A stretch of 44,611 bases of DNA from Verrucomicrobium sp. BvORR034 (lineage in GTDB: Bacteria > Verrucomicrobiota > Verrucomicrobiia > Verrucomicrobiales > Verrucomicrobiaceae), in NCBI RefSeq assembly GCF_000739635.1, contig NZ_BATQ01000017.1, positions 1 through 44,611 of the forward strand, in the 5' to 3' direction. The notes below the pieces were generated by a model. It made no database searches, had not been told where the DNA came from, and saw only the letters and a program-made list of their open reading frames with translations. Positions 650-15,534 of this stretch are shown in pieces. The position numbers were made by a program, and so were the translations under genes. How positions within the stretch are numbered: the first letter of the stretch is position 1; every line of letters starts with the position of its first letter.

Positions 650-1255
650 TCACGAACGCCGCTTGAGCAGCAACCACAGCAGACTACCAGCCGCCGCGAT
701 CAACACCACGATGATGCTCCATGGTGTTGATGAGGCTGGTTCTTCGCTCGGTGTCGTCGGTGTGGGCTTTGGTTCGGGTGCCTTTGGCGCTTGTGGCAGC
801 GGCTTTGTTTCCCGAACATCAATTTCCTTTGGAGTTGGGGATTGCGCCGTTTGGGCCTCATCAAATTTGCGGATGGCCTCTGCAGCCTGTGCTTGCACAG
901 AGGGCCACATATCGTCGTTTCTTGAGACTTCTAGAAACTGATTCAAGTATCTCCTTGCGATGGTCTTATCACCGTTGGATTTCTCGAAGACATTTATTAT
1001 TCGGCTGGCAGTGAGCCACTCTTCGACAGGGACACGGACAAGCTCGGCACCCAAAACTTCGTGGGCAGATGAACCCATCGAAACCAGCTTTTCCATTTTC
1101 AATACTTCTTCACCATACAGATCAACTCCCCGAGGCAGTAGCGCGAGAATCTCCTCCTTGGACAGAGTTTTTTCTTCACTTCGCACGCAATTAAGAAGTG
1201 AAAACCATGCCAGGAAGAGGAATATGAAACTTCTAAATGCTGGCTTAGTGTGCAT
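650..1255 (-). CDS. Secreted, C-terminally anchored hypothetical protein
   Basis: About 201 residues from the chosen ATG at 1255, which gives a clean signal peptide (Lys and Arg, then Phe-Ile-Phe-Leu-Phe-Leu, ending near Val-Arg-Ser). An in-frame ATG at 1282 is nine codons upstream and less likely. The middle is helical (roughly residues 30-130). A Pro/Thr/Glu-rich linker follows, then a C-terminal hydrophobic helix ending Leu-Lys-Arg-Arg-Ser. This tripartite tail (linker, membrane helix, basic end) resembles surface-anchoring tails in general but lacks the Pro-Glu-Pro of PEP-CTERM. Its start overlaps the stop of the giant gene upstream by about 11 bases, so the two are probably translationally coupled. 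No family is recognised. It may help anchor or process the neighbour, but that is inference. Confidence 0.65.
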
Positions 1256-4200
1256 GCGAGTTGGATAGGATTTTAGTTGCATCAGATTGCTTGAGCCGTC
1301 GCGACCCGCTAATCCCGTTTGTGTCCAAAATATTGGGCTGCATTAAGTGCCAAAGCGGAAAGACGCCCGACGCATCTTCATGACCACCGTTGGTGAGCAG
1401 GTGCCCAAGTTCATGCGCTGCTGCATACCCACCCCAAGGCGAAAGTGTCGATTTTGACAGAACCACGTTGTAGGTGAAGGAGTCCTCGCTGGCGGCGAAT
1501 GCAAAATCGGCAATTGCTGCACCACCGGCTGCACCTCCTGCAACGGTAAGCGTGTTCACATAAAATACATGAATGTCGGCATTAGATGCCCCTGTTCCCC
1601 ATGCGGTTATCAGATCCTTGGCCTCTTGGGCAACAGTCCCGTTTCCTGCAAGCAGGTCTGCAGCAGACGAATCGGTCACGTTTAGCCCAGGGGGGCTCAG
1701 ATCGACACCAGTTGGCGGGTCTTTTACACCTGCATGGGTGACATTGAGCTTAACACCGCACTGGGCATAACGCTCCTTCGCGATTCTCCAGAAGTCTGTC
1801 ACGACTGTTTGTGAAATCACTTCTGTGCCTCCAGCCGCCTGCAGTTTGTCTCTCAGAATGACCGTGGTGACATCCACCGTCTTTTCCGCTGGAACTGGAA
1901 TCTTGGTGCCAAGCGTTTGCCAAGCTCCAGTGCCGATCTTGATCTCCTCGATCTTAAAGTTTCCTCCAAGCTGGATTTTGTGCGTCCGGTCGTCAGTGGC
2001 ATCGTCAGCTTTTCCATCAACAGAATGATCATCATCAATATCGTCCGACACGAGGAGCAGCGATTTGGAAATCGCATCAGCTCCATCAGTCACAAGATCA
2101 AGCTGTGTGGCGTCGTCGTTGTATGGGGTTGTTGCGCTGTGATCTGGGTTGTCCGTGGTCGAAACCTTAACCGAGATGCCGCCCATTGAAGCACCGCCTT
2201 TGACGCGGATGAAGAACCGATCTGAGTCTTTATCGATGTCGAGCGTTGTCGACGCGCCCGTCCCCGTGAGGACACCCGTTTCACTCATCTTGCCAACCTT
2301 GAGTTTCGAGACCGCTGCCTTGTTTTTATCCACTAACTCCACCGGGAGGAGGATCACTGGCTCCGTTTTTTGTTGAGGCATTGCAATAGGATTGCCTGTA
2401 GGATCTCTAACACGCACTGCAGTACCAGCTATCACGCCGGCTTCATTCAAACAAATCAGCGAGAATTGCTGCCATGCCTGAGTCGGGCCGGGAACGGATT
2501 GGCCGGCAAGATCCTTCATGGGGATTGATTTCCCGTTCCTCCAGATCATGGAGCCATAGACTCCCACCCCTTGAGAATTCATGTCGTTCACGACAATGGG
2601 CACCGTTGTTCGCTTTCCATTGATTTCTGTCACCCAGTTGCTGCTTTCGATCCAAGTGATCAACGGCTGCCCTAATTGTGATGAGGTGGGATTCTTTACT
2701 GACGGAGGGGTTTCGCAGAAGCTAGGATCGCTCCAGGATGGTGCTGTGACGTACTGGCGTCTTCCTCTGCCCCCGTACTGAAGGAGCCAAGGATTTCCGG
2801 AGGTGCCGGTGACTAGCCGGAGGAGCGCATGTCCACTTCGAGTGAAGCCTCTCACCGACGGTAGGCCAAGGCTCATCATGGGATGGCGGGGGTTTGTAAG
2901 CACTGTCACCGTAGGCTGAGTGCCGCTGGGCGCATTTGCCGCGAGTAGTCTGTTATCAAAAATGCGATAGGTGAGATTTCCCACCAGGAGATTCTGGACT
3001 TTCAGGCTGTAAGAAGGTGCGCTGACTTCGGTCAACCACTCGCCATGTTTGGAGTAGTTTTCGTTCCTCAACCAGTACTTGCCATTTGCAAGAACGCGCT
3101 TCTCATCATCTTTGTATTCTACATCGACTGCGCCGATATCTGTATCGCCCAGTTTCCGCGGCGTTTCCAGGGAGGCGATCCCGCTCGAATCCCACTTGAC
3201 CACGCCTGTGCGGATTCCCTCTTTTGTAACGTGGCCATAGACCTCTCCGGTATCCGTCAAGCTGAGCAACCCTCCGGCTTCGGCCTCTATTGGTTGTCCT
3301 CCGGCGTCCAGATCCTGGAGTGTGATTTCGGTGGTCAACTGTTGCCAGGCCGCATTTTTCCAAACGGCAATCTGGGTCTTTCCGTTCATTGTTCTTGTAG
3401 CCAGCACATCGCCCGCGCTATTTATTCTTAAAGGAGTCCATCCGTTTCCGCCGAGAGCAACAATGGCATAGCGTACTTCAGGTGTTTTGGCCCAGTTGAC
3501 AATTCCATCAGTTGGTAGGGCATCAACACTGTCCATGATGTTGTCGCCGTCAGAATCAGGGTTGTTAGGTAGAGTTCCCAATGCGGCCTCTTCAGCATTT
3601 GTAAGTCCGTCTCCGTCCGAGTCATCGGGTGTCGGGGGCGCAGGCGTGTTGCCGCTGTTTGCCATGCCCGTTCCCGAAGCGTATTCCTTGATGTTGGACG
3701 CACCGTCTCCATCGGCATCAAGAATTGCGTCGGCTGGATCCGTAGGGTCCAGCCCGGCGGCCAGTTCTTCTTCATCAGGGATTCCGTCCTCGTCCGAGTC
3801 CAGCAACCAAGGATCGGTGCCAGCGATAAACTCTTCGAGATTGGTAAGACCATCTCCATCGACATCATCTCCTGCTGACGCTGCTTCCGCATCAGCGAAG
3901 TGGAGCATTTCCCAGTAGTCAGGCAACCCATCGCTGTCGGCATCCTCGTCGGCATCATTGACACTGTCGGCATCACTGTCTACAGCTTGCGGATCAAACT
4001 GAAGGGTAAACTCAATCGCGTTGCTGACCCCATCAAGATCGAGGTCATCTTCTGCATCATCGTGTAAGGCGTCCAGACCATTCGAGCTTTCCCATTGGTC
4101 TGGGAGGCCATCCTGATCGGTGTCAGAGTCCAAGGGGTTCGTGCCCCCTTGGTATTCTTGCAGGTTGGTCAGGTCATCGTGATCGGCGTCGGCTAGGGGA

Positions 4201-6299
4201 TCAATTAGGATGATCTGACCGAAGTGTTGCTGCTCCCAGTAGTCGGGGAGGCCATTGGCATCGAAATCTCCTTCTACGTCCAATGTGGAGTCGTTATCTG
4301 TGTCTGCGGTTGTGGGGTCCAGGTCCAAAATATATTCCTCCTTGTTCCGAATGCCGTCCTGGTCAAGATCCTCAAGCAGATCTGTTGAATCCAGCGGATC
4401 CAGTCCTGCGTAGTGCTCCCACCCGTCTGGCAGCCCATCCATGTCGCTGTCATCCAGAGTAGGGTCCGTTCCCGCTTGAAACTCCAGTATGTTGCTCAGT
4501 CCATCTTCATCTTCGTCTCCGTTTGGGTCGATGCCGACATAGTAGAAGTATTGCAGCTCCCAAGCGTCACCGATGCCGTTCAGGTCTGCGTCTTCGTCCC
4601 GATCAGAAATACCGTCGTTGTTGCTGTCCGAATTACTGGGATTTAGCCCCAGGTAATGTTCTACGACGTTGAAAATGCCGTCTCCATCAGCGTCTGACGT
4701 GAAGACATCGGCCGCTAATGGGTCCAAGCCATTGGCTGCCTCCCAAGCGTCTGGAAGGTTGTCGCCATCCGTGTCGACGGAGAAGGGGTCGGTTCCGGCG
4801 GTGAATTCTTGTAGGTTTGTCAAAGAGTCACCGTCATCATCCCCGCTTGCAATTGCTGAAGTCGCGGAGTTGTAGTAGCGCAGTTCCCAGTAGTCAGGAA
4901 GCCCGTCCGTATCCATATCCTCTGCGGCGTCGCCAATCGTATCAGAATCAGTATCCGGATTCCGAGGGTCAAACGCCAGGATGTACTCTTCTCGATTAAG
5001 CACCCCATCCTGATCGACATCCGCATAGGCATCATAACCTATTGGGTTGGTTCCGTGCGTGCTTTCCCAACCATCCGGGATGCTATCTGAATCAGTATCC
5101 GCCAAGAGAGGATTAGTCCCCAGCATGAACTCGGCCTGCGTATTGAGTCCATCTCCATCAGAGTCCTGCACAGAGCTCAATGTACTGAGGTTTCCGTAGT
5201 ATCGATACTCCCAAAAGTCAGGGAAGCCATCGCTGTCACTGTCCTCATAGTCATCTGATATACCGTCGCTGTCGCTGTCTGCCGAATAGGGGTCGGAACC
5301 CATGAGATGCTCTTCACGATTACGTACTCCATCACCATCGCTGTCTGCATCAGCGTCGTGCGAACTTAGGGGGTCTAGTCCATTCGATTGTTCCCACCCA
5401 TCAGTCATTCCGTCACCATCGCTGTCATCGCTTCCGAGGTTAGTTCCCAGCTGAGCTTCCTCCAGATTCGTAAGCCCATCCCCGTCATTGTCCTCGTCGC
5501 CATCATTGGTGCCATCGTTGTTGCTGTCTGAAGATTGGGGATCGAGCCCTGAAACATACTCTTGGGCATTCTTCAACCCATCGCCATCAGGATCTTCGTC
5601 GGGGGTGTTGTAGTCTCGCAAGTTGAGACCGTTGTAGTATTCCCACTCGTCCGGAAGCCCGTCAGCATCTACATCCCCCAAAGAATTTCCAGAAGGCCAG
5701 ATTCCTTCAGCATCATAGAGAATGTCTGCAAACTCATAGAAGTCGTGAAACCCGGGAACTGTCTCGTCATGCGCAGGGTTTAGAAAATAGAGAAGTTCTT
5801 CAAAAGTCAGCACCCCGTCATAGTCGGGATCATCAACAGGGTTGATGTCCGGATATATTGAACCGCTGTACTGCAACATGGGATGAATCTCCACCCAGTG
5901 GGATTCAACTACATCCAGCAGGTAGTCATCATCATTGTCATCCAAGTCAACAATTGCAGCATTTAGTGGCCAATTCCGAGAGTATGCTTTGTGATTGGTA
6001 AATCCATCACCGTCCAGATCTTGCGCAGCATCTGCTGGGTCGCTGGGATTCAGGCCGTACGTCAGCTCATCTGTATCGGGAATGCCATCTCCGTCGGTAT
6101 CCGTCTCCCACGGGTCAGGGAGATAGGTGTCTGGAATGCTATCGCTATCCGTGTCCTGCCATGAACCCGCTTGTAGCCGGGGCAGGGGCAAAAAGCAAAG
6201 ACAGATACATGCAAACAGAGGAATGCTTAAGGAGAGTAGGCCAGGGAGCTTGCGGAGTTGAGCAAAAGCACTGCCAAGTCGACGGGGGGATCGTTTCAT
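1245..6299 (-). CDS. Giant secreted TSP3-repeat protein with metzincin-like metalloprotease domain
   Basis: 1684 residues. A signal peptide with a long hydrophobic core ends near Leu-Gln-Ala-Gly (about residue 45). Residues about 48-930 are thrombospondin type 3-like acidic repeats. Two unit types alternate, one built on Asp-Gly-Leu-Pro-Asp-x-Trp-Glu and Gly-Leu-Asp-Pro, the other on Asp-Gly-Leu-x-Asn-x-x-Glu and Gly-Thr-Asp-Pro. Such repeats bind many calcium ions and form stiff stalks. A beta-rich region follows (about 940-1300), then a domain of mixed composition. The C-terminus carries HELGH at residues 1629-1633 with a further His at 1640 and a downstream Leu-Met-Gln-Pro near 1652-1655 that could be a Met-turn. 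This suggests a zinc metalloprotease of metzincin type, but the third His is one position later than in the classic HExxHxxGxxH motif. The protein is probably extracellular. The gene is more AT-rich than the genes right of 8 kb. Confidence 0.88.
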
Positions 6300-6444: not shown

Positions 6445-7257
6445 TCAGAGTTTCCCTCGGAGGCACCGGACGGCAATGGCCAGGTGAACGAAGCCTGAGT
6501 AGGTTTCGATGAGCTTGTCGTAGCGCGTTGCCACCCGGCGGCAGCGCTTGAGGACTTCCCAGAAGTTCTCGACCACATGGCGTTTCTTAAAGCTCTCCGG
6601 GTCGTGGGCGACGGGCTCCTTGCGGTTGCTTCTGGAAGGGATGCAGGCTTACAATCCCTCATCCACACACGCCTGACGGGTAAAGTTGGCATCATAGGCT
6701 CTGTTGGCCACGAGTTCTACGATACCAGAGCCCTTGCAGCCTTTGATCAACGCTTCTGCCTGGGTGTTGTCGTGACGGTTGCCTGCCGTGAAGCTCAGAG
6801 CAAGAAGTCGCATGTGCTCGTCGACCACTCCATGGATCTTGGTGTTGTTTCCTCCGCGTGATTTGCCAGTGAACTGTGGCGCTTGTCCCCCCCGCCGGAT
6901 TGGCTCCGTCCCGGTGGACCTTGACATGGGTGGAGTCCATGGCCGCAAGCTCAGCACGCCGCCTGGCATTCCAGGGCACCAGGTCCACCAAGGCCTGGGG
7001 AAGACCAAGAGAGATCCAACGCCGCCAGTGTCCATAAACGGTGCGCGAAGCCACACCGACATGGCCAAGCGCACGCCAGCTGACGCCTTCCTTGAGCACG
7101 AAGAGCAACCGTTGGATCCACCAAGCCCAAAGGGGCAGGCGGTCGGTGGCCGCGTGTCTACGTATGGTATTTAGGCGTCTATGGTTCTTATAAACCCCTC
7201 AATCAGAGGGATCGTTCGCTGGAAACTCTCGTCCAAATGCATGGCCCCATCTGTCAT
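6445..7257 (-). pseudogene. IS5-family transposase, probably inactive
   Basis: Translation of the minus strand gives typical IS427-group transposase pieces. The first frame has Asp-Ser-Thr-His-Val-Lys-Val-His-Arg-Asp-Gly-Ala-Asn-Pro, which carries the first catalytic Asp. The second frame has the second Asp region (Asn-Arg-Ala-Tyr-Asp-Ala-Asn) and the C-terminal helix with Val-Val-Glu-Asn-Phe. The frame change falls in seven C on the plus strand at 6887-6893. One G fewer (or a +1 shift) restores Pro-Ala-Gly-Gly-Gln, so this shift may be normal for the group. Two other faults look like decay. A TAA at 6649-6651 sits inside the otherwise continuous C-terminal domain, where CAA would fit. At the 5' end, the ATG at 7257 opens a frame that does not join the main frame, which has a TGA at 7199-7201. 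Movement would need a transposase supplied from another copy. Confidence 0.8.
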
Positions 7258-8100: not shown

Positions 8101-10083
8101 TCAAACTTCAAGCAACGACATCCTCCGCCGGACGAACAACGCCCCTGCACCACCCACAAGCAAAAGGCACCCGGTAAGAGGCTCCGGCACGGCGGATATC
8201 TGAATGGTCACGTCATTCCCACCGAGCAAGGAGTTGGTGGCGGCGTTTCCGGTATAGCCAATGTCCACGGTGATGCCCAAGTCCGCGAAAGTCGCCCGAC
8301 CGTCCAGGATGGATTGAGTGTAGGTGGTGCCATCCAGCATCACGTTCAGGAAGTCGAACTGCCCGAGAACTGAGGAGCTGTCGAGGTTGAATAGGAAATA
8401 ATTCGCCTCGGGATCCGTGCCGTCCAGATCGTGAAAGTAGGCCATGGTGGAGGCCGTGAGTTGCATTTCCAGGGTAGTACCCGTCCCGACCTTCAGATTT
8501 CCAGTGAGGGCAATTTGATCATAGTCCTGCCCGGCAATGGGAGACTCTCCAAGGGAGACCGGAGCACCCAAGGTGAACTTGGCAGTGGATCCCGTTTTGT
8601 ACTCCAGATTGGCCCCCGAGAAGACCTTTGAGTTTCCGGGATGAGTGGCTCCGCCGTTTTCCACGGTAATGTTACCTGTGACTCTACCACTGCCGCCCAA
8701 GGTCCCCGTGCCACTCACCGTCACTGCTCCAGTCCCTGTGCCGGAGCCGGTGGTGTTGTTCACCTTCAGTGTGCCGCCGTTGATTTGAGTGCCCCCTTGA
8801 TAGGTGCTGGCGGCGGTCAGGATGGTCGTGCCTGCAAGGTGCTGCACTTTCGTGCCACCACTGATCAGGATGCCGCTGTTGACCGCAGTCGTAAACTGGT
8901 ACCCCGTTTCATTGTGGTTGAAGATGATGGTGGAGTCGGCAGGAGGCACCAGATTGTTGGAGTAAACCCACCCATAGACTTCGGCGACGTTCAGCCTCCC
9001 TGCGGCTGCCCCCATGCCAATACGCAGTACCCCAACGCTGGAGGGCGTGCCAGGAGCGCTGTTTGTTGGCATACCTCCTACGGTCAGTTTGCCATCACCC
9101 GTTCCTAATGCGGATCCTGCTTTCGAAACGCTGACCACCGCCCCGTCAGAAACCGTCAGGGTTCCCTTCCCGCTGGAATCACCAAGCGTGAGATCGCCGA
9201 CCACATTCAATTGTGAATCTGCGCCAGTCACCGTCGTGGTGCCTTCCTCGTTCAAGTAGGAGCCGATAAAACTGTTGCTGCGGGCGCTGATGACGCCGCC
9301 CGCACTGACGACGGCAGAGTTGGTCGCGGAGCTGTCGATCCTGATCCCTCCCGTGAGGTCCAGAGTGGCCGCTGCCTGGGTGAGGGCGTCCCGCCCGGTC
9401 ACCACGAGAGTGCTGCCTCTATTCACGGCAAAGCTGGAGGTCGAAATGGCACCTCCGTTGCTGATCGTGAAGCTCGCGGTGCGGTTGTTGGAAGCGTTGC
9501 CCACACCGATCCCCATACTGGGGTTGTCCCATTTCGAACCCGCACCGTCCACCAACACGGAAACGGTTCCCGACGTGCTGCCGATGCTTGTCGTCGAAAT
9601 TGTGGGCAGAGTCGGAACGCCGGTGCTGGTGAGCACAGCCCCTGAACGAATGTTGAGGCTGGCGCTACCCGTCGATCCCAGTGTGATCGATCTGCTGACC
9701 GTCATGGTTGCGCCCATCTCAAGATTCAAGGTGCCCTGACCGAATTGGCCTATCGAAAGCTCATTGCTGAGAGTCAGGGTTGTGCCACTCCCAGTCACGG
9801 TCACGGTTCCTGGTCCAGAGTAGCGTCCTACACGCAGAGCACTTACGCTAAGACTCGATGCTGCATCAACTAGGAGGCTGCCTGCACCAGCATGGCCGAT
9901 CGCAGTTTCGGACGCTGTCGAGTAGGTGCTTCCTCCGTACGTAACCTCGGCGACCGCCTTCGTCGCGGGAAGCGACAGGACTAGAATCCCAAACAAACGC
10001 AGGCCATTTCGAAATCCGTCCAACCATTCTCTCCCGGGTCTCTTCTGCCCAGGCCTTTGATGGGGAGCGATAAGATGTTTCAT
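8101..10083 (-). CDS. PEP-CTERM autotransporter-repeat surface protein (paralogue 1)
   Basis: 660 residues from ATG 10083. An ATG seven codons upstream (10104) is the alternative; 10083 matches the start used by the paralogue (Met-Lys, then a His/Ile/Ala/Pro stretch). The long basic leader and hydrophobic core end near Ala-Val-Ala-Glu. The body is Gly/Thr/Ser-rich beta-helix sequence with repeated Gly-x-Gly-Thr-Leu-x-Val and Ser-Gly-Ala-Val-Leu-Thr. An autotransporter-associated beta-strand repeat lies near residues 410-470 (Tyr-Gln-Gly-Gly-Thr, Gly-Gly-Thr-Leu). The tail is Val-Pro-Glu-Pro, a hydrophobic helix, then Arg-Arg-Arg (about residues 632-660), the PEP-CTERM sorting signal. In this system an exosortase cleaves the tail during export. 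No exosortase gene is in the window. The protein is probably surface or matrix located. Confidence 0.9.
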   Translation of the reverse strand: MKHLIAPHQRPGQKRPGREWLDGFRNGLRLFGILVLSLPATKAVAEVTYGGSTYSTASETAIGHAGAGSLLVDAASSLSVSALRVGRYSGPGTVTVTGSGTTLTLSNELSIGQFGQGTLNLEMGATMTVSRSITLGSTGSASLNIRSGAVLTSTGVPTLPTISTTSIGSTSGTVSVLVDGAGSKWDNPSMGIGVGNASNNRTASFTISNGGAISTSSFAVNRGSTLVVTGRDALTQAAATLDLTGGIRIDSSATNSAVVSAGGVISARSNSFIGSYLNEEGTTTVTGADSQLNVVGDLTLGDSSGKGTLTVSDGAVVSVSKAGSALGTGDGKLTVGGMPTNSAPGTPSSVGVLRIGMGAAAGRLNVAEVYGWVYSNNLVPPADSTIIFNHNETGYQFTTAVNSGILISGGTKVQHLAGTTILTAASTYQGGTQINGGTLKVNNTTGSGTGTGAVTVSGTGTLGGSGRVTGNITVENGGATHPGNSKVFSGANLEYKTGSTAKFTLGAPVSLGESPIAGQDYDQIALTGNLKVGTGTTLEMQLTASTMAYFHDLDGTDPEANYFLFNLDSSSVLGQFDFLNVMLDGTTYTQSILDGRATFADLGITVDIGYTGNAATNSLLGGNDVTIQISAVPEPLTGCLLLVGGAGALFVRRRMSLLEV

Positions 10084-10156
10084 GATCAGTCGAGTGGTTG
10101 CCATCGGTATGGAAAAACAATCAGACCTCCATCTATGCTGGAGTGGACATGGACCT

Positions 10157-10189
10157 CAACTTGCCAAACCCAGTAGCGACTACGGGGTT
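10157..10189 (-). promoter_or_regulatory. Conserved palindrome upstream of PEP-CTERM gene 1
   Basis: Read on the minus strand, arm AACCCCGTAG (10180-10189), loop TCG, arm CTACTGGGTT (10167-10176). There is one mismatch between the arms. Conservation with the copy at 12330-12362 runs on through about ten more bases (TTGGCAAGTTG against TTGTCGAGTTG). The site lies about 84 bases before the ATG of the gene at 10083. It could be an operator or activator site, or a hairpin at the start of the mRNA. The same sequence recurring in front of both paralogues, whose other upstream sequence differs, argues for function. Confidence 0.65.
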
Positions 10190-10295
10190 CTCCACAAGGG
10201 CGCTAAGACTTCATTCAGCTTCACCCCGGTTCTATCCCCTTATGGGCAAACGGTGCTTTGCAGGGCACAGTCATTTTTCGGCGGGCGCTTGGCCG

Positions 10296-12248
10296 TCAAC
10301 CCGCCATCAACGACTTGCGCCGACGCGTAAACACCACCCCCACCACTCCGGCCAGTAGAAGGCAGCCGGTAAAGGGCTCCGGAACGGAGGACACCTGGAT
10401 CGTCATGTCATTGCCGCCGAGGAGGGAGTTGGTAGCCGCGTCTCCGGTGTAACCCACATCCAAAGTGATGCCCAACTCTGCGAACGTTGCCCGACCCTCC
10501 AACATGGATTGCGTGTAGGTGGTGCCGTCCAGCATCAGGTTGAGGAAGTCGAACTTGCCGGTGATGGGAGCGGTCAGGTCAAACAGGAAATAATTCCCCA
10601 ACGGGTCGGTGCCATTGTGGTCGTGGAAGTAGGACAGGCTGGAGGCGGTGAGCTGAAGCTGAAGCGTGGCTCCGGAATCAATGACCAGATTTCCGGTCAT
10701 CTGAATGCGGTCGCAGTTCATCCCCGCCGCTGGAACCTCTCCGCCTGCGCCTGTTGTGGCCAGGGTGAACTTCGCCGCGGATCCGGCTTCATATTTCAGG
10801 CTGCCCACCTTCAAGATTTGGGAGTCACCGGGAAGCGTGGCTCCACCGCTCGCCACTGTGATGTTTCCTGAAATCGTGCCCCGGCCTCCCAGCACCCCCG
10901 TGCCGCTCACGTTCACTGCTCCGCTTCCTGTGCCGGAGCCACTCGCGTTGTTCACGACCAACCGGCCCCCGGTGATCAGCGTTCCGCCTTGGTAGCCACT
11001 GGCTGCGGTGAAGATCGTGGTGCCCGCCTCCTGCCTCACCTTGGTGCCGCCATTGATCAGGATGCCAGTCCCGGCCGTGTTGGTGAACTGATAGGCCGTC
11101 TCATTGTGATTGAAGACAACAGTGGAATCCGTCGGTGGCACCGGGGGATTGGTGGAGGTAAAACCTGTGATCTCGGAGACATTCAATTTCCCAGCGGCCC
11201 CACCAGTGCCAATATGAAGCACTGCCACGCCTATGGGAGTTCCTGGATTGGAGTTCGAGCCCCTTCCTCCTACCGTGAGTGTGCCATCGCCTGTGCCCAG
11301 TGCAGATGCGGTCTTGGAGACGCTGAACAATGCACCATCGGTCACCGTGAGGGTGCCCCTGCCGCTGGAGGCACCTATCGTCATGTCGCCCACGACATTC
11401 ACTTGCGATCCTGCACCCGTGACCGTCATCGTTCCTTGCAGGCCTTGGTAGGAACCGATGAAACTGTTGCCCCGCGCGTTGACAATGCCGCCAGCGCTGA
11501 CAACGGCTGCATCAGAGCCTGAATTGTCGATGGAAAAACTTCTCTGCAGATCCAAGGTGGCGGCCGCTCCCGTTACGGAATCAAGTCCGGTGACCAGCAA
11601 AGCCCCTGTTGAAGTGACTCCAACTCCGGTCGTCGAGATATTCCCCCCATTGCTGACCGTGAGAACGCCCGACACACTGATTCCCAAGTTGGGAATGATC
11701 CATTGAGATCCTGCACCGTCTACGGTGGCGGACGACGCTCCCGCCGTAGAGGAGTTGCCGATGAAGATCTGACTTGCCGTGCCGATTTCCGAATTTCCAT
11801 TGCTGGTGAGCACGGCTCCCGAGCGAATGTTGAGGGTGCCCGTGCCAGTCACTCCAATCTCGACTGACTTGTTGGTCGTCATGGTGGCGCCGAGTTCGAG
11901 ATTCAGGACCGCGCGTCCCAAGTATCCCATGTTCAGTATTTCGCTAACAGATAGCGACGTGCCGATGCCGGTGACTGTGATGATGCCAATGGCGTCTTTG
12001 TATCTCCCTACCGTCAGAAAACCCCTGAGGTAGTCATAGCCTTCGTTGATCACGAGACTGCCCTCGGCCGTAAAGCCCACCCAGGCGTTTGTTGGTTGCA
12101 GAACGTTGTCACCCGTGCTGGTGAAGCCCGCTTGGGTGGTGCCTGGCAAAAAGAGGATGGCAATAGCCGCACCGGCGATTGCAGTCAGTCGGGTGAAACG
12201 ACTGGGGGCTGTGCGTATGGCCGCCGGAGCGATGGGGTGATTCTTCAT
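10296..12248 (-). CDS. PEP-CTERM autotransporter-repeat surface protein (paralogue 2)
   Basis: 650 residues from ATG 12248. The frame is open further upstream, but this start gives a standard signal peptide (Arg-Leu-Thr-Ala-Ile-Ala-Gly-Ala-Ala-Ile-Ala, cut near Thr-Gln-Ala-Gly). It is collinear with the neighbour at 8101-10083 over nearly its whole length, including Leu-Asn-Ile-Arg-Ser-Gly-Ala-Val-Leu-Thr-Ser, Phe-Ile-Gly-Ser-Tyr, the beta-strand repeat and the tail Val-Pro-Glu-Pro-Phe-Thr-Gly-Cys followed by a hydrophobic helix and Arg-Arg-Arg. The pair arose by tandem duplication and has diverged well. The gap to the next gene (10083 to 10296) holds its sister's promoter region. Probably exported and sorted by an exosortase encoded elsewhere. 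Confidence 0.9.
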   Translation of the reverse strand: MKNHPIAPAAIRTAPSRFTRLTAIAGAAIAILFLPGTTQAGFTSTGDNVLQPTNAWVGFTAEGSLVINEGYDYLRGFLTVGRYKDAIGIITVTGIGTSLSVSEILNMGYLGRAVLNLELGATMTTNKSVEIGVTGTGTLNIRSGAVLTSNGNSEIGTASQIFIGNSSTAGASSATVDGAGSQWIIPNLGISVSGVLTVSNGGNISTTGVGVTSTGALLVTGLDSVTGAAATLDLQRSFSIDNSGSDAAVVSAGGIVNARGNSFIGSYQGLQGTMTVTGAGSQVNVVGDMTIGASSGRGTLTVTDGALFSVSKTASALGTGDGTLTVGGRGSNSNPGTPIGVAVLHIGTGGAAGKLNVSEITGFTSTNPPVPPTDSTVVFNHNETAYQFTNTAGTGILINGGTKVRQEAGTTIFTAASGYQGGTLITGGRLVVNNASGSGTGSGAVNVSGTGVLGGRGTISGNITVASGGATLPGDSQILKVGSLKYEAGSAAKFTLATTGAGGEVPAAGMNCDRIQMTGNLVIDSGATLQLQLTASSLSYFHDHNGTDPLGNYFLFDLTAPITGKFDFLNLMLDGTTYTQSMLEGRATFAELGITLDVGYTGDAATNSLLGGNDMTIQVSSVPEPFTGCLLLAGVVGVVFTRRRKSLMAG

Positions 12249-12329
12249 GCGATTCTTCGGCGTCCAAGCTGCCCTTCTGAATATTGGATTCTGGCGACGC
12301 CTTCCATTGCCGTGTCCGGAGTGGGAGTA

Positions 12330-12362
12330 CAACTCGACAAACCCAGTAACGACTACGGGGTT
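12330..12362 (-). promoter_or_regulatory. Conserved palindrome in divergent PEP-CTERM / histidine kinase promoter
   Basis: Minus strand: arm AACCCCGTAG (12353-12362), loop TCG, arm TTACTGGGTT (12340-12349), then TTGTCGAGTTG. It pairs less well than the copy at 10157-10189 (a G-T pair and one mismatch) but is otherwise near identical. It is about 92 bases from ATG 12248 on one side and 54 bases from ATG 12416 of the histidine kinase on the other, so it could serve either gene or both. Confidence 0.65.
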
Positions 12363-12415
12363 TTTAGGGGCATGGCACTTGCGTTGCGGAAGGAATCAGG
12401 GAGTCTCTGCGTCGA

Positions 12416-14395
12416 ATGAATTTCCAGCGTCCCACTCCGTGGCTTGCGTTCGCGGCGGTGCCGTTGATCGTGGTACTGGCGTTGGGCTGGCTGCTGCTGG
12501 GGTATGCCGGCCACAGGCATGGCGTGGTACCGTTGCCAGGGACCACCGGCTTTACAGTGGAGCACCTTGGGGATGCAGGGGAGGGGCGGACCCTGCGAGA
12601 GGTGGAAGCCTTGCCGCCTGATGCATGGACCCCCTGGACGGGCGACAACTACCATGTGGTGGGCCCCAGCCAGGTTCTCTGGTTGCGGGTTGTGTTGCGA
12701 AACAACAGTGCCAGCGAGTTGCGCGGCATCCTTGAGAACGACGACTATTTCGCAGACCGCGTTGAGCTGTGGGTTCAGGAGCCAAGCTCGCCGGCAGTTC
12801 AGCCGGACGGGCCCTGGCTGTCCGGCGAAGGCGTGGCCAATGTCGACAAGAGAGTTGCTGGCCGCGAGATCGCCTTCCCGGTGACGCTTGAACCCGCGGC
12901 CGTCAAGGTGGCATACCTGCGGCTGGAGAATCACTTCCGGCCATTCGTCCGTCTGGTTTGGTGGCCCGATGCCGGGGCCTTTCACGAGTCGAGGTCCCGC
13001 GATGGAATGGCGGAGGGCATCTACCTTGGAGGCCTTCTCGCCCTCCTGGGTTACAATGTGCTTTTGTGGCTTCGACTGCGCCAGCCGGATATGGGCTGGT
13101 ATGTGCTTTATCTGGGATCCGTGGCTGCGTTCATGTTTCTGGCACGCGCACAACTGCCGGCGCTGGGGCTGCCACTGGCTTCACCCGGACTGGAAACAGT
13201 ACTGACGTTGATGATGGCGCTCAATGGTCTTTTCTTGACCCAGTTTGCACGGTCGTTTCTTGAACTCAAGACTTCCTTCCCGAAGATGGATCGCTGCATG
13301 CAAGGATGGGCCGCATTGATGCTCGTGGCAGCTGTGGCGACCCTGACCACGCCGTGGGCATCTACATCCTGGCTGCCATTCGTGACTCTCTCAAGCGGGC
13401 TTACCCACACTGGGTTGCTTGCGGTGGCATTGTCTGCATGGCACGCCCGGAAATGGCAGGCGCGGTTTTTCGTGCTTTCATTCGGCTGCCTGTTTGCAAG
13501 TTCGCTGCCGATGGTGGCCGTCTGGTTCTTTGAGGGGCTCCTTCGAGATGTGGCCATGCGCGGCCTGATGGTGGGCTCCGCCCTGGAGATGCTGCTGCTG
13601 TCTCTGGCCGTCGCGGATCGCTTCGCGAGGGCACAGACGCAACTGGTGGAGGAAACCGAGCAGCGTCGCATGATCGAGGAGGCCTATGCTGATGAGCTTG
13701 AAGAGGAGGTCCGGGAGCGCACCCGCGAACTCCAGGCGGCAAACAACGACAAGGACCGCATGCTTTCCGTGATCGGACATGATCTGCGCGGGCCTCTCAC
13801 AGGGTTGATGCGCTCCGCCGAGCGTGCCTCAGGGGAGTTTTCTCGTGACGCATCACGCACCAGTCGGGCGCTGCTCCTGATGATTGAAGACCTGGTGCTC
13901 TGGGCTCGGCTGCGGGCGGCCAAACAAGCGGTGTCCGTTCACCCCGCGGCGAGCTTGGTGGGGCCGGCGGTGGCTCTGCACGAGTCCCTCGCGGAACAGG
14001 CGGACATCGTCCTGCTACAGGAGGTGCCAGAAGAGGTGTGGGTGGAAACCGACTTGGTGCTCGTTCAGACCCTGGTGAGAAACCTTCTGGCCAACGCCCT
14101 GAAGTTCGCCATGACCCGGGTGGTGCTGAAAGTCGAGACAAGTGATGGCAAAGTGCGCTTTACGGTTGGCAATGATGGACCCGCCCTCTCGCTGGAAGTG
14201 GCTGCGCGGCTGGCTGCGGATCTGGATGAACCCGTCACCGCCACCTCAGGTATGGGGCTGCGTCTCTGCCGCGAAATCTGCCGGGCTCTCGAGATCAAGC
14301 TGGAATCTTCCATCGGAGCTGAGGGCGGCACGGAGTTCTCATTCACTTTGAAACAAGCCAGGCTGACATCGACAACAGAGGAGGAGACCTCATGA
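12416..14395 (+). CDS. 7TM-DISM sensor histidine kinase
   Basis: 659 residues. An N-terminal membrane helix is followed by an extracytoplasmic domain (about 40-190) of the 7TMR-DISM extracellular type, which often binds carbohydrate-like ligands. About seven hydrophobic helices follow (200-400), then a coiled coil rich in Glu and Arg (405-445). The dimerisation and phosphoacceptor domain has His455 in Val-Ile-Gly-His-Asp-Leu-Arg-Gly-Pro-Leu. The ATPase domain shows an N box (Val-Arg-Asn-Leu-Leu-Ala-Asn-Ala-Leu-Lys-Phe), Asn-Asp-Gly-Pro and Gly-Met-Gly-Leu-Arg-Leu. It should autophosphorylate and pass phosphate to the response regulator that overlaps its stop by four bases. It is divergent from PEP-CTERM paralogue 2, with only 167 bases between the starts, which suggests but does not prove that it senses envelope or polysaccharide state. 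Confidence 0.93.
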   Translation: MNFQRPTPWLAFAAVPLIVVLALGWLLLGYAGHRHGVVPLPGTTGFTVEHLGDAGEGRTLREVEALPPDAWTPWTGDNYHVVGPSQVLWLRVVLRNNSASELRGILENDDYFADRVELWVQEPSSPAVQPDGPWLSGEGVANVDKRVAGREIAFPVTLEPAAVKVAYLRLENHFRPFVRLVWWPDAGAFHESRSRDGMAEGIYLGGLLALLGYNVLLWLRLRQPDMGWYVLYLGSVAAFMFLARAQLPALGLPLASPGLETVLTLMMALNGLFLTQFARSFLELKTSFPKMDRCMQGWAALMLVAAVATLTTPWASTSWLPFVTLSSGLTHTGLLAVALSAWHARKWQARFFVLSFGCLFASSLPMVAVWFFEGLLRDVAMRGLMVGSALEMLLLSLAVADRFARAQTQLVEETEQRRMIEEAYADELEEEVRERTRELQAANNDKDRMLSVIGHDLRGPLTGLMRSAERASGEFSRDASRTSRALLLMIEDLVLWARLRAAKQAVSVHPAASLVGPAVALHESLAEQADIVLLQEVPEEVWVETDLVLVQTLVRNLLANALKFAMTRVVLKVETSDGKVRFTVGNDGPALSLEVAARLAADLDEPVTATSGMGLRLCREICRALEIKLESSIGAEGGTEFSFTLKQARLTSTTEEETS

Positions 14396-15051
14396 ATGTT
14401 CCGGGCAAACTGCCGCCGCCCTACCGGGCCATGATTGTGGAAGACCAAGGAATGGTGCGCGCCTTCTTTGAACGTTGGCTCGCGGATCTACCTGGTTTCA
14501 TGGTGATCGGTGCTGCCAGGTCAGGGGAGGAAGCGTTGACCCTGGTGCCGACGGTTATGCCGGATGTGGTGCTGGTGGATTTTCAACTTCCCGGGATGGA
14601 CGGGCTGGAGTTCGTGAAGCTCGCCCGGCAGATCCGTCCCCAGCTTCGCGCTTTGGTCGTTTCCTCGCTCTCGGACGCTCTGGTGCTGACGCGTATTCAG
14701 GAATCTGGTGTCGAGGGGTATGTGGAAAAGGATGCGTCCCCCGACCTCCTGGCTGAAGCACTCGTGGCCGTGGCATCCGGTCAGCGTTACTATTCCAGGA
14801 AGTTTCATGAAACCATCGCCCGGGAAGGGGCCAATGCCGAAAGCGTCGGCAAGATCCTCTCCCGTCGGGAACAGCAGGTCCTGGGCTTTGTGCTCGACCA
14901 AAAGAGCAACCGCGAGATCGCCGAATTGATGGGGCTGAGCGTCCGCACCGTGGAATTTCACCGCGCCAACGTCATGACCAAACTTCAGGCAGGCAACCTG
15001 ACGGATCTGGTCGCCGCTGCGAAGTCCCGTGGTTGGCGGGACAAGGCGTGA
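14392..15051 (+). CDS. NarL/LuxR-type response regulator
   Basis: 219 residues. The receiver domain (about 10-130) has acidic residues near the start (Val-Glu-Asp-Gln-Gly) and the phosphoacceptor Asp63 in Leu-Val-Asp-Phe-Gln-Leu-Pro-Gly-Met-Asp-Gly, then Ser-Ser-Leu and a Lys at the expected place (Val-Glu-Lys-Asp). The C-terminal LuxR-type helix-turn-helix (about 150-215) reads Leu-Ser-Arg-Arg-Glu-Gln-Gln-Val-Leu, then Asn-Arg-Glu-Ile-Ala and Ser-Val-Arg-Thr-Val-Glu-Phe-His. The start overlaps the kinase stop (ATGA) and is preceded by GGAGGAG, so the pair is translationally coupled. Regulators of this class usually bind inverted repeats as dimers. The palindrome at 12330-12362 is a plausible target, by inference only. 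Confidence 0.95.
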   Translation: MNVPGKLPPPYRAMIVEDQGMVRAFFERWLADLPGFMVIGAARSGEEALTLVPTVMPDVVLVDFQLPGMDGLEFVKLARQIRPQLRALVVSSLSDALVLTRIQESGVEGYVEKDASPDLLAEALVAVASGQRYYSRKFHETIAREGANAESVGKILSRREQQVLGFVLDQKSNREIAELMGLSVRTVEFHRANVMTKLQAGNLTDLVAAAKSRGWRDKA

Positions 15052-15123
15052 GAACTTGCTGGTTCAGGAAATGCTCGTGGTGCATAGTGTCCACCGCGAT
15101 CGGTGCAGCCTCCCCGATTTTCC

Positions 15124-15534
15124 ATGATGAAACACTTCCTCTCACTGACAGAACGGGAATTCGAAAGGTTCTACAGTTTGCGTGATCACGCTGCCCCTGG
15201 AGGGAAAGAGGGTTTTGAAGAGGAGTGCCTTGTCACTTTGTCAGTTGTGGGGAAGTACCTTGCCCAACGGCTGGAGCCAGGTGACTATCACCTCCACGAG
15301 TATTTCAACCGATCACGATTCATTGAGGTTGCCTTTGAAGTAGAGACCTGCTTTCACCTGGATTTCGTTTGGGGCTTGCAAGGTCTTCTGGCGGGATTGA
15401 GGCAAAACTGGATGGTGTGTCTTTCTGAGGGGTGCTATCTGTTTGTGACAAGAGAGCAAGTCCTGGGATTTGATCCCACGGGGGAAGATGCCGCATTTCT
15501 TCGGCTTCAGTCGGAGTTCGAGGCCTGTGCCTGA
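15124..15534 (+). CDS. Hypothetical soluble protein
   Basis: 136 residues from ATG 15124 (the next codon is also ATG). A GTG at 15103 is an alternative. It has no signal peptide or membrane helix. The sequence is acidic and rich in aromatic residues, with Phe-Tyr-Ser-Leu-Arg-Asp-His near the start, Tyr-His-Leu-His-Glu-Tyr-Phe in the middle and several Cys. It follows the response regulator by 72 bases and may share its transcript. It ends 36 bases from the end of the convergent thioesterase gene. No family is recognised. Confidence 0.6.
   Translation: MMKHFLSLTEREFERFYSLRDHAAPGGKEGFEEECLVTLSVVGKYLAQRLEPGDYHLHEYFNRSRFIEVAFEVETCFHLDFVWGLQGLLAGLRQNWMVCLSEGCYLFVTREQVLGFDPTGEDAAFLRLQSEFEACA

Follow-up and report, generated by a model that had tools for sequence, protein, structure and literature searches.

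A regulator together with its DNA box has been described for PEP-CTERM genes in proteobacteria, where the accounts cited here make the system sigma-54 dependent (PMC1569441, PMC9850573, PMC3333781). This is PrsK/PrsR, which regulates many PEP-CTERM target genes via sigma-54 (PMC1569441, PMC9850573); an RpoN-dependent pepA has been reported (PMC9850573), and the motifs of the PrsK/PrsR paper are, as far as that account goes, shared by the proteobacterial members only (PMC1569441). In Desulfovibrio vulgaris, five predicted PEP-CTERM targets of the response regulator DVUA0057 were enriched in DAP-chip, and most of the sites validated in that study are inverted repeats of 4-6 bp lying 3-8 bp apart (PMC3333781). 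Members of the NarL/FixJ family are reported to bind half-sites that may be inverted, direct or single and whose spacing varies, as in the inverted repeat of DegU, GTCATTTA-N7-TAAATATC (PMC2245950). PEP-CTERM proteins are numerous in this group, with 65 counted in Verrucomicrobium spinosum (PMC1569441). Here we consider a palindromic element that occurs twice in a stretch of 44,611 nucleotides (nt) from Verrucomicrobium sp. BvORR034 (contig NZ_BATQ01000017.1, hereafter the window), once in front of each of two PEP-CTERM genes and beside the genes of a 7TMR-DISM histidine kinase and a NarL/FixJ-type response regulator (RR). On the basis of sequence comparison, we consider it very probable that the RR encoded next to this palindrome uses it as its operator, a private switch for the adjacent surface gene or genes. 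In the titles and the beginnings of abstracts of the open-licence literature we found no recognisable account of a 7TMR-DISM/LuxR-type pair controlling PEP-CTERM genes, and no open-licence paper was found to name both '7TMR-DISM' and 'PEP-CTERM'.

The features of the locus are collected in Table 1. The two PEP-CTERM genes stand in tandem and their proteins are 57% identical, with translated tails that read, by eye, VPEPLTG...RRR and VPEPFTG...RRR; profile scans of this pair gave no match to PEP_CTERM models at E 0.001. Gene 1 starts with ATG at 10104 or 10083 and gene 2 with ATG at 12248, the mechanical open reading frame of the latter extending to a TTG at 12332. The kinase and RR genes form one operon with a 4-nt overlap, divergent from the PEP-CTERM genes. 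In Pfam the RR matches Response_reg (69.6 bits) and GerE (64.1 bits), and its acceptor pocket consists of E17, D18, D63 and K113.

Table 1. Coordinates of the features discussed; positions refer to the window unless another locus is named.
Feature	Position	Strand	Score	Remark
PEP-CTERM gene 1, T5SS/PEP-CTERM-associated repeats	8101..10104	-	TIGR04393, 87.7 bits	
Candidate operator, copy 1	10157..10189	-	38.7 bits	before PEP-CTERM gene 1 only; matrix training site
PEP-CTERM gene 2	10296..12248	-	TIGR04393, 64.3 bits	paralogue of gene 1
Candidate operator, copy 2	12330..12362	-	39.6 bits	divergent gap shared by PEP-CTERM gene 2 and kinase gene; matrix training site
CTTGCG element, kinase side	12378..12383	+		candidate promoter element
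Histidine kinase	12416..14395	+		7TMR-DISMED2 sensor, 7TMR-DISM 7TM region, H-box GHDLR, HATPase_c; G1 box NDGP[A/P/T]
Response regulator	14392..15051	+		receiver and GerE/LuxR-type helix-turn-helix, NarL/FixJ family; proposed operator reader
Kinase with G1 box NDGP[A/P/T], locus L123	8145-10094			
Kinase with G1 box NDGP[A/P/T], locus L041	2-334			
Kinase with G1 box NDGP[A/P/T], locus L140	7614-8195			

The original prediction had placed one and the same 33-base sequence 84-92 bases before both PEP-CTERM starts. A repeat search recovered the direct repeat, and the distances are right if counted from the ATG codons, 84 nt for the one at 10083 and 92 nt for the one at 12248; the identity is not exact, 30 of the 33 positions (91%) being the same. 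The second copy does lie in the 167-nt gap (12249-12415) that gene 2 shares with the divergent kinase gene. The arms described around a central TCG are found in copy 1 (minus strand AACCCCGTAG TCG CTACTGGGTT) and not in copy 2, which reads TTACTGGGTT and has lost one inner pair. In the sense of the PEP-CTERM genes, copy 1 is CCCCGTA-gtcgc-TACTGGG-TTTGGCAAGTTG and copy 2 is CCCCGTA-gtcgt-TACTGGG-TTTGTCGAGTTG. As a palindrome alone the element is unremarkable, since the window holds four comparable inverted repeats (10-nt arms, at most one mismatch, 3-nt loop) against a mean of 1.6 and a maximum of 4 in 30 first-order Markov simulations. The sharing of the 33-mer is beyond chance: the best ungapped match has 30 identical positions, a number that never exceeded 20 in 40 simulations, and outside the element the two copies show poor alignment of their flanks.

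Orthologues of the RR were searched for in 386 genomes of the order and 384 of the class, two overlapping samples that cover both ranks partially, with scoring confined to the seven best candidates in each genome (genomes are given below by our own G numbers). The order-level sample contained, besides the window, six loci in five genomes whose RR has 55-83% identity, followed by four RRs at 32-33% (G185, G059, G044 and G107). In all six loci the kinase and RR genes are divergent from another gene and the gap contains CCnCGTA-N4/5-TACnrGG; one of the G207 loci had already been matched by the motif search with a 5-bp spacer, 2.0 kb from the RR. Three further loci came from the class-level sample, in G684 (70%), G542 (61%) and G423 (59%). 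In total, an RR with 55-83% identity to that of the window is encoded at nine loci, distributed over eight other genomes, and a related site is present in the module in all nine. In eight of them it is located in the gap between kinase and divergent gene; the site of G684 lies behind the RR and precedes a T5SS-repeat gene. This co-occurrence strongly supports the earlier suggestion that the adjacent RR may bind the element and control surface proteins.

The kinase accompanies the RR in all nine of these loci, on two contigs in G002 and as a broken gene in G684; adjacency in G002 is deduced from two kinase parts, as the contigs break inside the kinase gene. With G684 set aside, the other eight kinases are 41-66% identical to that of the window, and the GHDLR H-box is present in all nine kinases aligned. 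A search of the genome contigs with the kinase returned G002 and three distant kinases. The ten RRs form one clade (support 100/99), in which the loci with spacer 5 (window, G002 and G207a) group together (87/77) within a clade that includes G684 (97/99, spacer 4); the remaining inner forks are without resolution. Concerning the kinases themselves, those of the window, G002, G207a and G684 have NDGP[A/P/T] as their G1 box, which takes the usual form DDGPG in G207b, G153, G163, G358, G542 and G423. The variant tracks the RR clade, and altered ATP handling could be its meaning.

When oriented along the surface gene, the 11 sites follow CC[C/T]CGTA-N4/5-TAC[G/T][G/A]GG-TTTGnCnnGTTG, with departures in the left arm (G423), in the last base of the right arm (G163) and in the extension (G207a, G358, G684 and G542). 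The extension TTTGnCnnGTTG is on the surface-gene side in all 11, including window copy 1 and G684, which are not bordered by a kinase gene, and the surface gene would therefore be the main target. On the kinase side, CTTGC or CTTGA is found 8-19 nt beyond the palindrome in all nine gap sites (distances by eye). The spacer measures 5 bp in the window, G002 and G207a, and 4 bp also occurs, for example in G684.

What the predicted targets have in common was examined in seven site-adjacent proteins from other genera (the surface protein of G163 was left out of the scan). Five of them (G207a, G207b, G153, G423 and G684) exceed the curated cut-off for autotransporter or T5SS/PEP-CTERM repeats; the protein of G358 has delta-60 repeats instead, and that of G542 has weak PEP-CTERM family matches below cut-off and a tail reading PEPST...RRRR. 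A PEP motif, hydrophobic stretch and basic tail were recognised by eye in both window proteins and in G002, G207a, G207b, G423 and G542, and no such tail was seen in G153, G163 and G358; the PEP_CTERM model TIGR02595 scored above cut-off in G207b and G423 only. Judging from these sequences, the constant of the putative targets is a surface-type, often beta-repeat protein, and not strictly a PEP-CTERM protein.

Since the element precedes two PEP-CTERM genes, it could also be a genome-wide PEP-CTERM regulatory box, comparable to the proteobacterial one, and the original prediction had offered as an equal alternative such a site read by another factor. We regard this as very improbable. In the 8.58 Mb of its own genome, AACCCNGTAGTNNCTACTGGGTT at up to 3 mismatches matches the two window sites only (reversed-pattern control 0), so that just two local copies exist at a sensitivity that sites diverged beyond 3 mismatches would escape; the form with a 4-bp spacer is absent at up to 1 mismatch. 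Three further T5SS-repeat loci of this genome (C71, C154 and C195) contain, according to a position matrix described below, no site beyond the shuffle range, and the site-adjacent proteins of G153, G163 and G358 are not recognisable PEP-CTERM proteins.

Among the 386 genomes of the order, the pattern with a 5-bp spacer (up to 2 mismatches) matched 17; after removal of G000, G002 and G207, 14 genomes with 15 sites were left, compared with 33 genomes and 35 sites for the reversed pattern. Several orthologous loci were missed by this pattern because their spacer is 4. The pattern with a 4-bp spacer (up to 1 mismatch) matched 8 of the 386 genomes, namely four RR loci and four others, the latter inside long open frames, with 3 in the reversed control; it was designed on these four RR loci after they had been viewed, so that their matches are not independent evidence. 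Pattern searches in the RR genomes G000, G002, G153, G163, G207 and G358, that is, those other than G684, G542 and G423, revealed no additional site outside the module. At 3 mismatches, other genomes gave five matches (G056, G042, G011, G022 and G014), the reversed control giving 18 over both strands. Viral contigs yielded no relative of the kinase and no motif. Matches away from the module thus stay at the level of the reversed-pattern control. At the sensitivity used, the site is located next to the RR genes, is conserved and is restricted to the RR clade.

Before fetching G684, G542 and G423 we had written down the prediction that a site with at most 1-2 mismatches would lie in the gap upstream of the kinase. 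In G542 this gap contains a perfect palindrome, ACCTCGTA-gttc-TACGAGGT, 2 mismatches away from the pattern, in which a change of C to T in one arm is paired with G to A in the opposite arm. A matrix built from the eight sites known before the prediction ranked the expected place first in all three loci (15-16 kb each), with 34.4, 27.9 and 21.3 bits; the best control value was 15.7 bits, both in 30 first-order Markov simulations and in 46 control loci (167 kb; L011-L038 and L080-L097) around non-orthologous kinases and RRs.

It should be noted, however, that several observations weigh against the interpretation of the palindrome as the operator of the RR. Taken strictly, the written prediction held in G542 alone of the three loci: the G684 sequence has 0 mismatches but stands behind the RR, in a locus whose kinase and surface gene look broken, and the gap site of G423 has 3 mismatches, outside the predicted range, and one degenerate arm. 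The extension is poor in G358, the difference between 4- and 5-bp spacing moves the half-sites on the helix, and locus C195 of the own genome scores 15.5 bits, a value within the shuffle range. Against control of the RR's own operon, window copy 1 and the G684 site, two among 11, front a surface gene only. Finally, any factor co-inherited with the module would give an identical pattern, and co-occurrence cannot name the binder. The palindrome might then be read by another transcription factor and travel with the module, the RR acting elsewhere, and other LuxR-type proteins are available, with about 78 RR-like matches in the own genome. We consider this explanation unlikely: a widespread factor should leave sites outside the module, where matches are at control level; G003 has 63 RR-like matches, with many LuxR-type regulators, and yet no site; and no third regulator common to the loci was noticed, small open reading frames having been viewed without systematic comparison.

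Concerning G684, its kinase gene is truncated at the 5' end and continues across two frames; for the surface gene, the open frame that was listed starts about 500 nt from the site. This module (L140 4568-8896) looks as if it were decaying, with the RR and the operator sequence apparently intact.

If the palindrome is the operator of the RR, the 7TMR-DISM kinase would, from what is known of its family, sense an outside signal and phosphorylate the RR. A dimer of the RR would bind the two 7-bp half-sites, CCnCGTA and TACnrGG, placed 4 or 5 bp apart, as co-occurrence and symmetry suggest, and the bound RR would switch the adjacent surface gene, usually encoding a PEP-CTERM/T5SS-repeat or autotransporter-repeat protein. 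With the site in the divergent gap, the kinase-RR operon would probably be controlled as well. That the RR may control its own operon had also been proposed in the original prediction; this remains the weaker half of the proposal in view of the two sites that front a surface gene only. The regulon would be small and private, with one site per module, and with two in the window since the PEP-CTERM gene and its operator are doubled there.

An RNA hairpin in front of the kinase gene, either an intrinsic terminator or an attenuator, was also considered. A run of at least 5 T on the kinase side of window copy 2, G002, G207a and G684 would agree with it; the run is missing in seven of the 11 sites, the five folds calculated are ordinary (z from -0.10 to -1.66), and the three terminator-like sites in 9900-12700 (2.1 expected) do not include the palindrome. 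What is conserved in the arms is the sequence, beyond pairing alone, and we hold a hairpin function to be most unlikely. Regarding promoters, a 10/10 sigma-54-like match (TGGCAC-N5-TTGC) was observed before the kinase gene at 12373-12387 (+), with 9/10 in G002, and each of the four genomes examined from the genus encodes RpoN. A sigma-54 promoter was rejected as a general mechanism: the match faces the kinase, falls to 9/10 in G002 and is by eye not kept in other relatives. On the PEP-CTERM side no sigma-54 -24/-12 match was present among the best 25 matches, another 10/10 match is located within gene 1, at 9447, and the scan of 9900-12700 returned 0 sigma-70-like promoters.

Within the genus, G002 (Verrucomicrobium sp. 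BvORR106) has a single PEP-CTERM gene, the orthologue of window gene 1 (88% identical), and carries the copy-1 form of a 23-mer in the gap corresponding to that of window copy 2. Its kinase is 66% identical over residues 1-554. Identity of the RR is 83%, and residues 138-218, the stretch with the helix-turn-helix, contain one substitution. The flanks of the G002 site correspond to copy 1 on the PEP-CTERM side and to copy 2 on the kinase side, a pattern to be expected if either a duplication or a later loss had its end point at the palindrome. It could therefore be argued that the element was left behind by a tandem duplication of the gene, or marks a recombination joint, and has no regulatory role. 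Such an origin alone is hardly credible as an explanation, as the copies have kept 30/33 identity although their proteins are only 57% identical, and single-gene modules from other families of the class have retained the half-sites.

In G003, a congener, there is no TIGR04393 protein, no close kinase or RR and no site; there an MFS gene and a thioesterase gene adjoin, and in G002 the module sits between those two genes. The window module has a left neighbour different from the G002 arrangement, and in G001 (76% complete) neither a site nor a close RR was found. We tentatively propose, with somewhat less than even confidence, that the 7TMR-DISM kinase, the FixJ-like RR, a fixed operator and essentially one target make up a self-contained cassette, unrelated to PrsR and sigma-54, whose operator spacing shifted between 4 and 5 bp within the RR clade and which may be gained or lost as a unit, with an empty site in one congener.

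Other observations concern related loci and neighbouring genes. A distant kinase (28%) near a PEP-CTERM gene in G008 was rejected as a candidate and not counted as an orthologue: no matching palindrome is present and the matrix finds nothing, two motif matches with 3 and 4 mismatches lying elsewhere in the locus. In that locus (L040 5270-8645) a 7TMR-DISM-like kinase stands beside the PEP-CTERM gene and LuxR-type response regulators, and such a pairing of kinase and PEP-CTERM gene may be a wider theme. In the own genome, locus C71 (L099 5223-7034 and 7217-12106) has a gene for an autotransporter with T5SS/PEP-CTERM repeats and, divergent from it, two genes for LuxR-type regulators that resemble each other. 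Beside the PEP-CTERM genes of the window are overlapping frames (6649-7108, minus strand) that resemble a broken IS5-type transposase. The window also encodes, at 1245-6299 (minus strand), a 1684-aa protein with bacterial TSP3 repeats (PF18884). A 143-aa protein with no Pfam match is encoded at 15103-15534 (plus strand), 3' of the RR gene in the window as in G002.

The comparison thus gives good support to a conserved private operator, for which the RR, the candidate operator sequence and the target gene can all be named; if this is true, at least some of these surface proteins would each answer to a private sensor instead of belonging to a global PEP-CTERM regulon. By sequence, relatives of the window RR include VraR, FixJ, EsrB and DegU of the NarL/FixJ family, with which it shares the domain layout and would share, according to the family account cited, inverted half-sites of variable arrangement and spacing (PMC2245950); it would differ in the half-sites CCnCGTA/TACnrGG and in the type of target. 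The geometry of the sites in the DVUA0057 study is close to that of the window palindrome, and, in the same account, that case differs in resting on the PrsR prediction, in having several targets and in the location of its gene in an exopolysaccharide operon (PMC3333781). Among the best 25 of 84 families in the NCBIfam scan there was no PEP-CTERM-box regulator, and the Pfam domains of the RR are Response_reg, GerE and Sigma70_r4_2 only, with no sigma-54 interaction and Fis-type domains as in PrsR. The likeness to PrsK/PrsR, as that system is presented, is that a two-component pair is tied to PEP-CTERM genes through an upstream DNA element (PMC1569441); the difference is that the pair consists here of a receiver-GerE RR and a 7TMR-DISM kinase, with one or two sites per genome.
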